A stretch of 51,162 bases of DNA from Thiotrichaceae bacterium (lineage in GTDB: Bacteria; Pseudomonadota; Gammaproteobacteria; Thiotrichales; Thiotrichaceae): the NCBI GenBank assembly GCA_026989145.1, contig JALSJU010000089.1:1-51162 (forward strand), given 5' to 3'. Below the pieces are notes generated by a model. It had not been told where the DNA came from and made no database searches. It was given only the letters and a program-made list of their open reading frames with translations. Within the stretch, counting starts at the first letter, position 1, and each line of letters begins with the position of its first letter. Below, piece after piece: positions 28,539-36,226 of this stretch. A program made the translations under genes and the position numbers.

Positions 28539-30671
28539 TCACATTACATGACACTGATAACTAACTCTAAAAAATAGTCGCTTTCGTGCTATAAAACCGA
28601 CTAGCATAAGTGCAAATAAAACAAAGTCGCTTGAACCAGCTGATTTTTCCTTTTGTGCTTTCTGGTTAACTGACGTATCGAGCAAATCATTTTCAAAACC
28701 TTGCTCTGGCGCATCTGTTACATCGTTCAAAATTAACCTAATATTTCTATTTGAGATGTCAAAAAAGATATTATCGCTGCACTTCACTTTAAATCTTGCT
28801 TGGTAAACTTCAGGTAAAGTTGTCTTTAAAAATATACTGGCGCTACCCGTGTTAGGCACATGCGCAAGTAAAGCATGCGGAAAGCTATAACCACCATCAA
28901 CAGACAATGCAATATCAACGCTGTCACAATTAATTGGTGCTTTGTCCGTGTTTGCTACGTTCCACTTAACCGTGTGGCTTCTTCCTAAGGCATAGTAAGC
29001 ACGTGGTTTTTCAAGTGCAAAACGGCTTCCTGTGCGCTTTACATTAATTTTCATGGCATCACTGCGCGCTGAATTAAAGCCATCCTGAACCACAAATTTA
29101 AAATTAAGCTGACGCGTTTGTGTCGGTAGCGTTTCACCTTTTATTACTTTACGTGGCAATAAACTGTCTAAACTTGGGAAAGTACGTGTAGCATTATCAT
29201 TTAAAACATAGGCCCTAAATAATGCGTTATCCCCTTTGTCTTCCCCTTCAAAAGAGTTTGACCCTGCATCTATTTGTTGCCAACCGTAAACTAAATTATC
29301 ATAATCTGAATCTTGTGCATTTCCTGTTAGCTCAAACGGTGTACGTGATGGAATTGTATAGTCTGCTCCAGCATCAGCAATTGGAGCCTGATTTGGCGCA
29401 GTACTGCGTACGCCACAGCTTGCACCTAAACCCTGTTGGGTATAAGACCTGATTTGTTCAATGCTACCAATATGAAACATCGCATCAGAGTTTGATTGTA
29501 AATTATCCACACCACAAGAACCCGCGTAAGCCATTACCGATGAACCGCTACCCGGCTCAAATGAGCTGAATTTAGTCCGCGTACCAGAACATGAACCTTC
29601 GGTACTGTTAAAAGTATGCGTTGCTCCGAGTTGATGACCTATTTCATGCGCAACAAAATCAATATTAAAGCTATCATTGAAAGGATTAGTGATACCCGAA
29701 ACCCCTAACGCCTTGCGAGAATCGTTACAAAGGCTGGCAATGGCGGCCACTCCACCACCACTGTTTGTTGTAAATAAATGCCCAATATCATAGTTATTCG
29801 TACCAATGACTTGATCGGTATTCGTTTGATTTTGATGAATTAAGCCGACTGGGTCTGAGGCATCAAAAGGGTCAGACTGTGCATCGGTATAAATTAATAA
29901 GTCATTATTTTCAACCAGTGTTAAATGAATACCCAAATCTCTTTCATACACTTGATTAACACGTGCCAAGGTTGTAGAAATTGCGGCCAGCGCACTGGCA
30001 ACCGTTCCACCTGATTTTTTAACATATTCACCGGTTGCAGCAATTGCAATGCGGTAGTTAATTATTGATGCTGTTGTGCTGAACTTAGCTTTAATACCAA
30101 TAAGGCTATCATTATTAAACGTTGTAATACCAGACATCATGGGGGTTGTAGAATCCGCATGATCTACGCCACAAGAGTAAGCTTTATCTTGATGCTGCTC
30201 ATGCTTATTGTACGCGACATAAGTATTCTCTGTCCTTGCGGGGTCAATAAAAACGGTCTCACCATTGCGCAGTTGTAACATGCCGTGAAAACCATTTGAC
30301 GTCATATCTAAACGTCCAGAGATGAGCTGCTTGTTTGGTAAAACGCGGTATGACTGAATAGCGGGGTATTTTCTTGCTAATGCGGCAGGTAAGATATTAT
30401 CAGACTCAATAGTTACCTTAATCATTTCGCCATTTGGTAGTGGTAAACTAATTAGCTGTGGCTGCTGAAGGGCATTTTTCATGCGGACCGCATTTAGCAT
30501 CAAGGCCCTAGCATTCAAATGAGATGGATTATTATGCTGTGCTAGACCGGCAACGATTGATTGCGTATTGCTCTCAACAGGCGCAACATCTAGCCATAAA
30601 GACTCCTCAGCTGTAACGCTTAAGTTTAATGTTATTGTTGCTAGCAGTGCTAATAATTTTAATGTTTTCAT
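28539..30671 (-). CDS. Secreted reprolysin-like zinc metalloprotease
   Basis: The 710-residue product has a Sec signal (to about VTAEE, residue 22), a propeptide-like region, and a zinc protease domain. That domain has HEIGHQLGATH, an HExxHxxxxxH zinc site with His342, Glu343, His346 and His352, placing it with metzincins. A downstream SSVMAYAGSCG would be the Met-turn. Then come Ig-like/PKD-like segments (PIADAGADYTIPSRTP), and the C terminus has SAGSSDFVLFALMLVGFIARKR, a hydrophobic stretch plus Arg/Lys resembling GlyGly-CTERM-like sorting tails. An extracellular or surface role is inferred. It is convergent with hslO and divergent from the gene at 30913. Confidence 0.88.
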   Translation of the reverse strand: MKTLKLLALLATITLNLSVTAEESLWLDVAPVESNTQSIVAGLAQHNNPSHLNARALMLNAVRMKNALQQPQLISLPLPNGEMIKVTIESDNILPAALARKYPAIQSYRVLPNKQLISGRLDMTSNGFHGMLQLRNGETVFIDPARTENTYVAYNKHEQHQDKAYSCGVDHADSTTPMMSGITTFNNDSLIGIKAKFSTTASIINYRIAIAATGEYVKKSGGTVASALAAISTTLARVNQVYERDLGIHLTLVENNDLLIYTDAQSDPFDASDPVGLIHQNQTNTDQVIGTNNYDIGHLFTTNSGGGVAAIASLCNDSRKALGVSGITNPFNDSFNIDFVAHEIGHQLGATHTFNSTEGSCSGTRTKFSSFEPGSGSSVMAYAGSCGVDNLQSNSDAMFHIGSIEQIRSYTQQGLGASCGVRSTAPNQAPIADAGADYTIPSRTPFELTGNAQDSDYDNLVYGWQQIDAGSNSFEGEDKGDNALFRAYVLNDNATRTFPSLDSLLPRKVIKGETLPTQTRQLNFKFVVQDGFNSARSDAMKINVKRTGSRFALEKPRAYYALGRSHTVKWNVANTDKAPINCDSVDIALSVDGGYSFPHALLAHVPNTGSASIFLKTTLPEVYQARFKVKCSDNIFFDISNRNIRLILNDVTDAPEQGFENDLLDTSVNQKAQKEKSAGSSDFVLFALMLVGFIARKRLFFRVSYQCHVM

Positions 30672-30825: not shown

Positions 30826-30855
30826 TTAACCGCTGGTGCCAAGCTCCGTTATAAT
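30826..30855 (+). promoter_or_regulatory. Candidate sigma-70 promoter for the zinc-ribbon/primase genes
   Basis: TATAAT (30850-30855) is a perfect -10 hexamer, with TTAACC 18 bp upstream as a weak -35. It lies in the 208-bp gap between the divergent protease gene and the zinc-ribbon gene. Confidence 0.45.
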
Positions 30856-30912: not shown

Positions 30913-31458
30913 ATGATGAGTGAATATAAATTAATGCTTTACCCTGCTGAGCCAGATCTTGTGGTTGATTTAAATACTTTGAAGAAACACTTAAACCACC
31001 TAAAGCTGTTAGGAATGGAACTAACAAGCTCGCTTGGAAATAACCACTATGCAGTAGGCGAAAGCTTCTTATCCTATTTCACCTTTATGGGTTGCTCTCC
31101 AGATATAGAACTAGACCCCCAACCAGATAAGCCTTTTTGCTATATCGCCTTGCATAGCACTAGTGCTACACAATTTGTTTCAGGTGCTAACCTGAAAAAA
31201 AGTCGTTGCACTTCTTGTAAGAATGAGCTGAAAAACGTTAGCACCACGTTGTTATGCCCTCACTGTGATAACCCCTTAGAGCTAGATAAAATTAACTGGC
31301 GAAAGAGTGCTTTCACCGCAAAAACATGGATTACGATTGGTAATATTTACGAATTAGAAGCAATCCCCAATGACGAATTACTCGACAGTTTAAAAAAGCT
31401 CACTGGCGTACAATGGAAGCCAGCTTATATACGACACATGAAATTACTAGAAACCTAG
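30913..31458 (+). CDS. Uncharacterised zinc-ribbon protein upstream of the primase-HAD gene
   Basis: I do not recognise this family. The 181-residue protein (start taken at ATG 30913; ATGs at 30880 and 30916 are also possible, none with a strong ribosome site) has an N-terminal alpha/beta part and a central treble-clef or zinc-ribbon. The ribbon is CTSC at 99-102 and CPHC at 115-118. Its C-terminal part is helical, with a Trp-rich stretch (NWRKSAFTAKTWITI). Such ribbons commonly bind nucleic acid or structure protein contacts. It precedes the primase-HAD gene by 20 bp, and a partner or accessory role to that enzyme is inferred from position only. Confidence 0.7.
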   Translation: MMSEYKLMLYPAEPDLVVDLNTLKKHLNHLKLLGMELTSSLGNNHYAVGESFLSYFTFMGCSPDIELDPQPDKPFCYIALHSTSATQFVSGANLKKSRCTSCKNELKNVSTTLLCPHCDNPLELDKINWRKSAFTAKTWITIGNIYELEAIPNDELLDSLKKLTGVQWKPAYIRHMKLLET

Positions 31459-31478
31459 ATCAGAAACCTAATAAAAGA

Positions 31479-32720
31479 ATGGCAACCAAACACGAAATTA
31501 TCGGCGAAGAATGGAAAGAACGCGCCACTGAGCTTGCCGAATGGGCAATGCAAAATATGGTCAACCGCAAGGATGTATGGGGCCAATATTCCGTACTCAC
31601 TCCTAGTGAACGAATCAAAGAAGGTCGCGATTACAAAGCAATGACCCTACCACGCAAAGATATGCGTGGCGAAGACATGGTTACTTTAGATAAGCTTACG
31701 CGCCATTTCGCCAGTCGTCATCATCACAAGCCACAAATAATTGGTTTACATGAAAAATCCAAAGAAACAACCAGCAAATGGCTAGGCATAGACATTGACT
31801 GCCACGATAGTGACTCGGTCGCAGCCGAAGACCACGCTCGACGCAATCTAAACGGTGCCCTCAAATGGTGGCGTGATTTTCAAAAAATGGGCTATGATCC
31901 TTTACTAATAGACACTAACGGTGCAGGTGGCTACCACCTATGGGTCTTGTTTAAAGACCCCGCCCCCACCGAAGATGTATACATGCTGGCAAAAAGTTTT
32001 GTCACCCAATGGGAAAGCAATAACTTAGATGAAGAGCCAGAAACTTTTCCCAAAAAAGTGAAAGAAGGTAGTCTTGGCTCATGGTTTCGCCTGCCAGGTT
32101 TACACCACACCCGCGAACATTACGGCAAAGTTTGGAGCGGTGATGATTGGCTAGATGATCCATGGCTGGATGGGCATGCAGCGATTGATGCGATTCTTAG
32201 CGTTGTTCCTGGGCCACCTCCGCCCAAAGCAGGCAAGCAAGATTTAACCCCAAGAAAAACGCGTCGCAGCACCATAAAAGAAGAACCGGTTAAAACTAAA
32301 AAAGCCAGTGCTCGTCGAAATAGTTTTAAATCAACCGGTAAATCAACGATTTGTCTCGACCTTGATGGCGTACTCGCGGATCGAACCTACACCAAAGGAA
32401 AAACAGATATTGGCGAACCCATTGATGGCGCGGTAGACTTTACACGTGAGCTTGCTGAATTTTCAAAAATACTCATCCTCACAGCACGTTTTTCTGAAAT
32501 AAAAAACCAGCAAGAGTCAGATAAAATGGCAACATCCATCAAAGCCTGGCTCGATCAACACAATTTTAGCTACGATGAAATCTGGACAAAATCAGCCAAG
32601 CCACCCGCACAAGCCTATATTGATGATCACGGCGTTTATTGCTGTCCAAAAAAAGAAGGCATTGGGGCATTTAAGACAGCCTTAGTGTCGACTAAGTATT
32701 TATTAAAGGTGAAAGATTAA
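31479..32720 (+). CDS. Fusion of an AEP/PrimPol-like primase domain with a HAD phosphatase domain
   Basis: The 413-residue product (ATG 31479; an upstream ATG at 31413 would overlap the previous gene by 46 bases) joins two enzymes. Residues 1-245 look like an archaeo-eukaryotic primase: WLGIDIDCHD with Asp105 and Asp107 as metal ligands, GGYHLW with His153, then FPKK (190-193) and SWFRLPG (201-207), the layout seen in TOTE/PrimPol-type AEPs. A Pro/Lys linker (246-288) leads to a HAD domain: ICLDLDGVLAD with Asp294/Asp296, LTAR with Thr335, Lys371 or Lys374, and IDDHG with Asp382/Asp383. All four HAD motifs appear intact. A joint role in nucleic-acid synthesis and 5'/3'-phosphate or nucleotide processing is inferred; no exact homologue is known to me. 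Confidence 0.75.
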   Translation: MATKHEIIGEEWKERATELAEWAMQNMVNRKDVWGQYSVLTPSERIKEGRDYKAMTLPRKDMRGEDMVTLDKLTRHFASRHHHKPQIIGLHEKSKETTSKWLGIDIDCHDSDSVAAEDHARRNLNGALKWWRDFQKMGYDPLLIDTNGAGGYHLWVLFKDPAPTEDVYMLAKSFVTQWESNNLDEEPETFPKKVKEGSLGSWFRLPGLHHTREHYGKVWSGDDWLDDPWLDGHAAIDAILSVVPGPPPPKAGKQDLTPRKTRRSTIKEEPVKTKKASARRNSFKSTGKSTICLDLDGVLADRTYTKGKTDIGEPIDGAVDFTRELAEFSKILILTARFSEIKNQQESDKMATSIKAWLDQHNFSYDEIWTKSAKPPAQAYIDDHGVYCCPKKEGIGAFKTALVSTKYLLKVKD

Positions 32721-32728
32721 GAATCATA

Positions 32729-33030
32729 AGCTTTACCTGAAATACAAAAAATAAATAAAAAAATAAATTTTAACTATTCAGCTTTGATTCAGGCAAGCTG
32801 GTCTATTCTATTAACAACTTCAGCAAGTAGTCACTTTTTCAAAGGGGTTTGTGATGTGACTTGTTGGTAAGGAATTTTAACAAATAAATATAATTGAGCT
32901 ACATAAAGTGGTCATCAAATTCCTACCATGCTGAATCGTTGTTAGTTTTACGGGGGTACTGCTAACGACACGCAGAAATAATTTTATTTCTGCAAAATTA
33001 TAAAAGCGGGCATTTTTGTCCGCTTTTTTA
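32729..33030 (+). ncRNA. Candidate structured RNA downstream of the primase-HAD gene
   Basis: The 434-bp gap after the primase gene has no convincing coding frame but a run of hairpins. They are 32729-32799 (AGCTT/AAGCT plus CCTGAA/TTCAGG), 32865-32928 (TGGTAAGGAATTT with AAATTCCTACCA, one bulge), 32938-32969 (GTTGTTAG with CTAACGAC, one G-T pair) and 32972-32993 (GCAGAAAT with ATTTCTGC, perfect). A terminator follows at 33002-33029. This is the pattern of a discrete RNA or a highly folded 3' UTR. It matches no tmRNA, RNase P or 6S hallmark that I could see. Strand follows the terminator and the upstream genes. Confidence 0.4.
33002..33029 (+). terminator. Rho-independent terminator closing the primase region
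   Basis: AAAAGCGGGC (33002-33011) pairs with GTCCGCTTTT (33018-33027), including one G-T pair, and the T tract continues to 33029. It is about 280 bp after the primase stop, so it closes either a long 3' UTR or a separate RNA gene. Confidence 0.88.
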
Positions 33031-33154
33031 TTTTCTAATGTTCATGATTTAATAAAAACTAGTGTGAGCCCCCTAAGTTCTATTCAATACTCCTTCCCTA
33101 ATAAAACTTAAAACCCAAAAATCCTGACAGGATATTACAGACTAATAGCCTTAC

Positions 33155-34534: not shown

Positions 34535-34948
34535 TCATGCCTCTGGCAATTGGTATTGCGAGCTTTTAGGAATCACCCAACGTACCCCACCTTTGGGGTT
34601 TTCTACATCACCGTCATAACGCGGGATGATATGAATATGTAAATGAAAAACACTCTGACCAGCGACTAAGCCATTATTGATACCGATATTATAAGCATCC
34701 GGTGAATATTTCTCATCCACATACTGCTTGGCGTATAAAATCAACTCGCGAAATTGTCGGTTTTCTTCCTCGCTACAATCAAAGTAAGTCTCAATATGCC
34801 GACGAGGAACCACCAAACAATGCCCGTTACTAACAGGAAAAGAATCGGTAATTAAGACTGCATGTTCTGTTTCTTTAATAATTTCATGGGGTTTTGGGTT
34901 GCAAAATAAACAAGGATTATTGGGGTCAAACTTTTTCTTTTCAGTCAT
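34535..34948 (-). CDS. HIT family nucleotide-binding protein
   Basis: This 137-residue protein has the histidine-triad active site FHLHIHIIPR (His102, His104, His106) and an N-terminal CLFC (Cys13, Cys16) typical of zinc-binding HIT proteins of the Hint/Fhit superfamily. They hydrolyse or transfer nucleotidyl groups, such as AMP-lysine or dinucleotide polyphosphates; the exact substrate is not predictable here. It follows the NTF2-like gene by 25 bases on the minus strand and is probably co-transcribed with it. Confidence 0.92.
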   Translation of the reverse strand: MTEKKKFDPNNPCLFCNPKPHEIIKETEHAVLITDSFPVSNGHCLVVPRRHIETYFDCSEEENRQFRELILYAKQYVDEKYSPDAYNIGINNGLVAGQSVFHLHIHIIPRYDGDVENPKGGVRWVIPKSSQYQLPEA

Positions 34949-34973: not shown

Positions 34974-35426
34974 CTAAGCGATTAAACCAACGTGCTTACA
35001 TTCATCGTGCGTCATTACTCGTTCTTGAATCACACGCCAAACACCATCTTCTTCTTTCTCTAATAAAATCTCAACCCCATGACTTCTATGGCTACCATCG
35101 TTAGCAAATACTGATTCCATTGTTTTGAACATCACTTGCTTATCATTATGGGCTGACATTTTTAAGCCATCATAAGTAACTTTATCAAGAACATTATCTT
35201 TAAACTCTTGTTCAGACTGCCTCGCCCAGTCATCATAACTGATGCCCTCGTCAAAACCCGGTACACCCGTTACTCGAACCTTCTTTGAGATAAGATTAAA
35301 ATGCCCCTCAAAATCTTTATTGCTTGCCGTTTTAGCAGAAGCATTTAACCAATCTTGTGCAATTTGTTCAGGTTCTATTGCTAGCTCTTTTAAATCGTAA
35401 AATTTTATTTCTCTATTTTGAGGCAT
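34974..35426 (-). CDS. NTF2-like/SnoaL-fold protein of unknown function
   Basis: This 150-residue soluble protein has the length and secondary-structure pattern of the NTF2-like (cone-shaped alpha+beta) fold: an N-terminal helix (EQIAQDWLNAS), then FEGHFNLISKKVRVTGVPGF, YDDWARQSEQEF and strands ending RVIQERVMTH. No catalytic residues can be assigned. It is the first of a two-gene unit with the HIT protein. The call rests on overall pattern, not on a specific family motif. Confidence 0.55.
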   Translation of the reverse strand: MPQNREIKFYDLKELAIEPEQIAQDWLNASAKTASNKDFEGHFNLISKKVRVTGVPGFDEGISYDDWARQSEQEFKDNVLDKVTYDGLKMSAHNDKQVMFKTMESVFANDGSHRSHGVEILLEKEEDGVWRVIQERVMTHDECKHVGLIA

Positions 35427-35599: not shown

Positions 35600-36226
35600 A
35601 TGGCACGATCACTCACATTCACCTTAGGCAAAGCCAGCTTTGATTGTACGATTCATAAAGTAGATCGCACAAAGCTTTATGGCTCGCGCAAGATTGAAAC
35701 GCTCGATATGGATGGCAATAAATGCAATCTAGCAACCCTGCTGGATGACGGTAAAACCCTAGTACCTTTCGGTGGAACGGCATCAGGTTATATCAACCCT
35801 GATGGTGAATGGGTTTGTCGCAAAGATATTACGCCGGTTGATTTTGATGGCAACAAACTTAAAAAAGTTCCGTCTAGCTTTGATGCGGGTATGCCTTTAG
35901 AAGAGACCATTACGGCTGAAGAATTTCTCGATCATAGCATTCGCCTTACTTACGCGTTAGAAAGTACAGATGGCATGGATGAAGATTTTTTAAAAGAAAT
36001 TAAAAGCGGCATAATCTTTAAAACATCATTCAGCTATCGTGGAGGCGTAGACCCTGATCCCGCCTTTGTGATGCAAGGTGAAGATGAAACCATTTGGTTA
36101 ATGATTGGCGCAGAAAATCGTGTCTCTTATTCTAAACTAGAACAAGCCGCAGTCATTGAAGCGACTGCAGAGAAGGATGAAGGCGCTGAAACCAGCAGCG
36201 AAGATCTCGACTTCGGCATGTTATAG
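35600..36226 (+). CDS. Conserved-looking protein of unknown function
   Basis: I do not recognise this 208-residue acidic, soluble protein. It opens with short beta-rich phrases (FTLGKASFDCTIHKVDR, then YGSRKIETLDMDGNKC) and has a glycine-rich GGTASGYINPDGEW near residue 52. It ends in an Asp/Glu-rich tail (EDLDFGML). No signal peptide, membrane helix or catalytic motif stands out. It precedes the small membrane protein at 36272 by 45 bp on the same strand, and the two may form an operon. Confidence 0.7.
   Translation: MARSLTFTLGKASFDCTIHKVDRTKLYGSRKIETLDMDGNKCNLATLLDDGKTLVPFGGTASGYINPDGEWVCRKDITPVDFDGNKLKKVPSSFDAGMPLEETITAEEFLDHSIRLTYALESTDGMDEDFLKEIKSGIIFKTSFSYRGGVDPDPAFVMQGEDETIWLMIGAENRVSYSKLEQAAVIEATAEKDEGAETSSEDLDFGML

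Follow-up and report, generated by a model that had tools for sequence, protein, structure and literature searches.

The DNA analysed here, called the window in the following, is a stretch of 51,162 nt; it corresponds to contig C89 of the genome G000, which belongs to a gammaproteobacterium and has a size of 2.63 Mb. Its plus strand carries a gene for a zinc-ribbon-like protein of 181 aa (30913..31458), a gene for a fusion protein of 413 aa which we refer to as AEP-HAD (31479..32720) and, downstream of it, a structured intergenic element (32800..33036) which ends in an intrinsic terminator. Further downstream on the same strand, at 35600..36226, lies the gene of a 208-aa protein, P208. In a preliminary description of this DNA, the zinc-ribbon gene, the AEP-HAD gene and the hairpins following it were proposed to form one unit, preceded by a TATAAT and closed by a terminator. 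Both ORFs are present as described, the intrinsic terminator at 33002-33027 is a good one, and the region after AEP-HAD is more structured than expected by chance (folding z-score of -5.78). A TATAAT indeed exists at 30850-30855, with a spacer of 18 nt to a TTAACC; however, the number of promoter-like matches in the region is not above chance (8 versus 5.9 ± 2.4). The zinc-ribbon motif can be recognized in the ORF, but the protein did not reach the cut-off of any family. Beside the locus, a reprolysin-like metalloprotease is encoded (window 28539-30671), of which two tandem paralogues are present in the genome G006 (L012 1-1902 and 2039-4288).

The AEP-HAD fusion protein

The best start for the 413-aa protein is position 31479, and the same start is found in the homologues. 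Pfam matched residues 68-213 (31680..32117, plus strand) to the AEP-TOTE family (PF22548) with an E-value of 6.2e-7 and 29.7 bits, the curated cut-off being 27. The closest solved AEP is the CRISPR-associated Prim-Pol (CAPP) of Marinitoga (7nqd/7p9j), which was detected at the level of profile (5e-5) and fold (1.7e-5); the polymerase of LigD is a weaker fold match. The DID, GYH, FPK and LPG motifs of the domain align with CAPP, and DxD, GYH and FPK are regarded as the shared motifs, but the match to CAPP does not extend to the HAD domain, and the partner genes described below differ from those of CAPP.

The HAD phosphatase domain comprises approximately residues 288-413 (32340..32717, plus strand). 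It matched phrog_1238 (5e-13) and, with 7e-6, the phage polynucleotide kinase family phrog_415. Heptose- and arabinose-bisphosphate phosphatases are included in its matches, and the 3'-phosphatase of T4 Pnkp is also found among those at the level of fold; the likeness to polynucleotide 3'-phosphatases is weak in family as well as in fold. The domain shares its small HAD fold and the four HAD motifs with T4 Pnkp and phrog_1238, but in contrast to T4 Pnkp, AEP-HAD is devoid of a kinase domain and is fused to an AEP.

Homologues of AEP-HAD were found in 10 other genomes, nine of them complete and the tenth truncated by the end of its contig. In the 11 sequences compared, whose identity goes down to 49%, the catalytic DxD (D105 and D107) and the histidine of GYH (H153) are invariant, as are the four HAD motifs DxD, T/S, K/R and DD (D294, D296, T335, K374, D382 and D383). 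The catalytic residues are kept across Gammaproteobacteria, Alphaproteobacteria and Verrucomicrobiia, and in every homologue the HAD domain is fused to the polymerase domain. Judged from its sequence, AEP-HAD truly joins an archaeo-eukaryotic primase domain to a HAD phosphatase, and may represent the primase-polymerase plus phosphatase subunit of a repair module. Comparison of its two halves by HMM and structure recovered an AEP family and a HAD phosphatase, in line with the domains initially recognized by their motifs alone. The nearest named relatives possessing AEP-HAD are metagenome-assembled genomes (MAGs) of Thiotrichaceae, and all carriers with record titles shown are MAGs.

Shared distribution of five genes and properties of the partner proteins

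P208 is considered a partner of AEP-HAD by co-occurrence and neighbourhood. In the window, the two genes are separated by 2,879 nt with four genes on the opposite strand between them. A P208 homologue of 208-211 aa is encoded directly downstream of AEP-HAD in four loci (L113 in G001, L014 in G782, L015 in Hellea and L016 in a Thiotrichales genome) and nearby in others. In Hellea and other genomes, P208 is followed by a gene for a protein designated '236' and by a gene for an ATP-dependent DNA ligase; such P208-236-ligase clusters are found in L015, L110 and L143. In four genomes, the gene of an ExoIII-like nuclease adjoins the ligase gene or is found close to it.

Whole-genome searches for all these proteins covered the same 57 related genomes, six of which harbour an intact AEP-HAD. 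P208 and the ligase were each found in all six carriers and in G013 (Fisher 1.9e-7 in both cases), '236' in five of the carriers and in G013 (8.5e-6), and the nuclease in five of the carriers as an intact gene and in the sixth as eroded fragments (1.4e-6); the carriers are mostly close relatives, so that their independence is overstated by all of these values. Two further weak matches in the ligase search correspond to other ligases, one of which adjoins a canonical Ku in G040. Neither a canonical (Pfam-detectable) Ku nor a second ligase was matched in any AEP-HAD carrier among the 57 genomes, and the '236' gene was not detected in 397 other genomes sampled from the phylum.

The five genes are dispersed. 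AEP-HAD and P208 of G000 are located on C89, '236' and the ligase on C80, and the nuclease on C76; the module genes of G004 are spread over three contigs, and in G025 AEP-HAD is found on C206, with the remaining genes on C53. The association thus goes beyond simple linkage. In the genome G003, AEP-HAD is decayed (L112 ~2131-2715 on C168), with stops, frameshifts and loss of residues ~96-303, and P208, the ligase, '236' and the nuclease are all absent. A divergent (~35%) P208-236-ligase operon is present in G013 (L108 6401-9187 on C50), a genome which lacks AEP-HAD and the ExoIII-like nuclease. AEP-HAD, P208, '236' and the ligase are all found in G783 (Hellea, Alphaproteobacteria), G270 (Thiotrichales) and G785 (Verrucomicrobiia), the last of which has AEP-HAD on one contig and the other three genes together on another of similar G+C content. 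A second Hellea genome contains AEP-HAD and P208, and no '236' or ligase was found in it; its contig stops just beyond P208. The identity matrices of the four proteins from seven genomes are correlated (r 0.89-0.99), and for all four proteins G270 is no more distant from Hellea than from G000, in agreement with a joint transfer of the whole set. Based on gene content, joint membership of AEP-HAD, P208, '236', the ligase and the nuclease in one module is well supported.

Other genes were found at these loci. In several genomes, a HIT hydrolase gene (window 34535-34948) and a SnoaL-like gene (34974-35426) are kept in the interval from AEP-HAD to P208. They were considered as module partners and rejected: both are still present at this locus in G003, a genome that has lost the module, and are thus treated as mere neighbours. 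Within the Hellea P208-236-ligase operon there is an Imm33-like gene (L015 7857-8198), and between '236' and the ligase a DUF559-type endonuclease gene is located in G011 (L114 182-613) and a HEAT/UPF0149/SEC-C gene in G006 (L012 9314-10651).

AEP-HAD was not found in phage or plasmid records, P208 not in plasmids or viral contigs, and '236' not in plasmids, phages or viral contigs. A phage or plasmid origin was dismissed, since none of these three proteins was found in the records searched and viral contigs contain only HAD domains. Approximately 50 IMG/VR viral contigs (L024-L076) carry these related HAD domains, either stand-alone or fused otherwise.

At the level of sequence, P208 matched no Pfam or NCBIfam family, and neither P208 nor members of '236' matched the Pfam Ku family (PF02735) at E-values up to 10. 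When scored with a profile built from 17 Ku members, P208 stayed below shuffled controls and '236' was close to them, and profile-profile comparison of P208 with Ku detected nothing. A single AlphaFold model of P208, based on a shallow alignment, has a pLDDT of 66 and a pTM of 0.58 and is confident over residues 1-20 and ~64-173. When this model was compared to the PDB with Foldseek, all 50 listed matches were Ku (best E-value 5.6e-7), and in a viral library just two matches had an E-value below 1e-3, both of them to phage Ku. The superposition with Ku gave TM-scores below 0.5 and an rmsd of ~19 Å over the full alignment, which means that the order of strands and domains is matched and not the exact shape. 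We conclude from this one model of moderate confidence that P208 is predicted to have the Ku core fold. A partial match to a phage head-closure protein (E-value 0.008) was dismissed as chance in view of the Ku-fold result. The C-terminal tail of P208 is conserved and ends with D-F-G/D-M-L/M.

The tail of '236' is rich in lysine in G000, G004 and G025, with 32 K/R in 80 residues in G000. In a comparison of the P208 and '236' profiles, the real alignment was better than 57 of 60 column shuffles and 180 of 200 block shuffles, a weak and non-significant likeness; on account of the block-shuffle control, the idea that profiles identify '236' as another subunit of Ku was rejected.

The ligase has the KxDG motif, motifs III-V and an OB domain, as is characteristic for ATP-dependent DNA ligases, and its residues K68, D70, G71, E119, E214, K227 and K229 are invariant. 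It matched DNA_ligase_A_C (1.8e-10), and its matches in the PDB are archaeal and eukaryotic DNA ligases. The nearest model is the NHEJ ligase TIGR02779, matched with 2.5e-13 and far below its cut-off. The nuclease is nearest to ExoIII/Xth and the LINE-1 endonuclease but does not reach the curated cut-off for Xth (56 versus 99 bits); the EEP residues N7, E35, D141 and N143 are invariant.

Possible function in DNA break repair and alternative explanations

We favour the explanation that these dispersed genes encode a Ku-dependent, NHEJ-like module for the repair of DNA breaks, in which LigD is replaced by AEP-HAD and a separate ligase, and assign to it a probability of roughly 0.6. According to this explanation, P208, perhaps together with the basic-tailed '236', would bind the DNA ends and hold them; the ExoIII-like nuclease would trim blocked 3' ends, the HAD domain would remove 3'-phosphates, its presumed substrate, the AEP domain would fill short gaps and the ligase would finally seal the break. 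We infer these activities, the 3'-phosphate as the HAD substrate, the formation of a complex and the order of events. Repair was one of the roles guessed in the preliminary description, and this guess agrees with an end-joining-like function.

LigD combines a polymerase, a phosphoesterase (PE) which makes 3'-hydroxyl ends and a ligase, and works with Ku (PMC8656161); split, operonic forms of LigD-type domains are known in other species (PMC5663958). With bacterial NHEJ, which relies on a Ku homodimer and LigD, the module would share a protein of predicted Ku-like fold, an AEP polymerase, a domain for cleaning of 3' ends and an ATP-dependent ligase. It differs in that the polymerase is fused to a HAD domain instead of a PE and a ligase of the LigD type and that the ligase is encoded elsewhere, so that AEP-HAD does not qualify as a LigD, classically a single protein with polymerase, PE and ligase domains. 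Further, the Ku-like protein is invisible to sequence search, an ExoIII-like nuclease and '236' are additionally present, and the genes are dispersed. New here are the HAD fusion in the place of the PE, the type of the AEP, the Ku-like protein not visible in sequence, the two extra proteins and the gene dispersal. We did not find this gene set described in the literature searched, the coverage of which was partial.

If the proposed function is true, it would be of interest for several reasons. Bacteria scored as negative for end joining by Ku/LigD searches may still possess it: since the Pfam Ku model misses this set, end joining could be overlooked. The module would represent a second way to assemble the activities of LigD, with a HAD phosphatase replacing the PE domain, and P208 would be an example of a Ku-like protein which has diverged beyond the reach of sequence search. 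Last but not least, the gene set provides a testable case for the evolutionary exchange of Ku-like proteins and end-processing enzymes.

It is tempting to speculate that two diverged Ku-like proteins, P208 with its conserved short tail and '236' with its lysine-rich tail, form a heterodimeric end-binding complex resembling Ku70/Ku80 which serves AEP-HAD, the ligase and the nuclease; we regard this as possible and hold it only tentatively.

The nearest rival to end joining is an excision repair complex similar to mycobacterial LigC/Prim-PolC, which would act on short gaps or in base excision repair. In this case the ExoIII-like enzyme would incise abasic sites, the HAD domain would clean 3' ends, AEP would fill and the ligase would seal, and P208 would serve as a clamp or scaffold which has a Ku-like barrel but does not form an end-binding ring. 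The gene set covers each step after base removal, and an ExoIII-like nuclease suits both excision repair and end joining. Moreover, in ref. PMC5663958, mycobacterial LigC/Prim-PolC is described to perform such repair with base excision repair enzymes, among them ExoIII paralogues examined in vitro, and, as in our module, a separate AEP and an ATP-dependent ligase go together with ExoIII-type enzymes. However, the HAD fusion, P208 and '236' are not among the components named for it in the passages considered, and the AEP described here is nearest to the CAPP and TOTE types. In addition, the P208 model matches Ku specifically, and G013 keeps P208, '236' and the ligase without AEP-HAD or the nuclease, a set which looks like a minimal core of Ku plus ligase and slightly favours end joining. 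We consider an excision repair complex rather unlikely.

A conflict or defence system, as suggested by the Pfam name "TOTE conflict system", is much less probable. AEP-TOTE is the nearest AEP family, PADLOC gave weak matches to UG10 reverse-transcriptase proteins, and the distribution is patchy with apparent transfer between classes; these points are in line with defence. On the other hand, PADLOC gave no strong match, phage and plasmid records contained nothing closely related, the viral contigs carrying the HAD domain only, and the components are dispersed among core genes and include a ligase, a nuclease and a protein of predicted Ku-like fold. The partners seen for the AEP-TOTE domain are genes of the repair type. 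Equally little credence can be given to the idea that the HAD domain is a small-molecule phosphatase for sugar or nucleotide phosphates and that nucleotides or primers, and not DNA ends, are the substrates of the fusion. The heptose- and arabinose-bisphosphate phosphatases among its matches would agree with such a function, but the domain is polymerase-fused in every homologue and tied to a DNA ligase, and the 3'-phosphatase of T4 Pnkp is among its fold matches.

Finally, the three-part unit of zinc ribbon, AEP-HAD and downstream RNA, suggested by adjacency in the window and by a zinc-ribbon gene adjoining AEP-HAD in G004 too, can practically be dismissed, since the zinc ribbon is distributed independently of AEP-HAD and the RNA belongs to another locus in G004. 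Members of the zinc-ribbon family were found in 20 of the 57 related genomes at varied loci, mostly away from AEP-HAD, and in only four of the six intact carriers (Fisher 0.17). A survey of the neighbourhoods of AEP-HAD homologues revealed that neither the zinc ribbon nor the downstream hairpins co-occur consistently with it, and both were judged to lie outside the module; on this ground, which the preliminary description had itself named as refuting, the idea of a three-part system fails. The structured element matched no Rfam family at the gathering score, and weak sub-threshold matches were disregarded. A single relative of the element was detected, in G004 (L111 5190-5428), beside the HIT, SnoaL-like and P208 genes, and AEP-HAD is on a different contig there. 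The G004 copy has a folding z-score of -5.67. Among the 64 consensus pairs compared between the two genomes, 56 are the same in both, seven are changed on one side, one is changed on both sides in a compensatory manner and none is broken. The element is thus best regarded as a candidate independent ncRNA, linked in G004 to the HIT/P208 locus.
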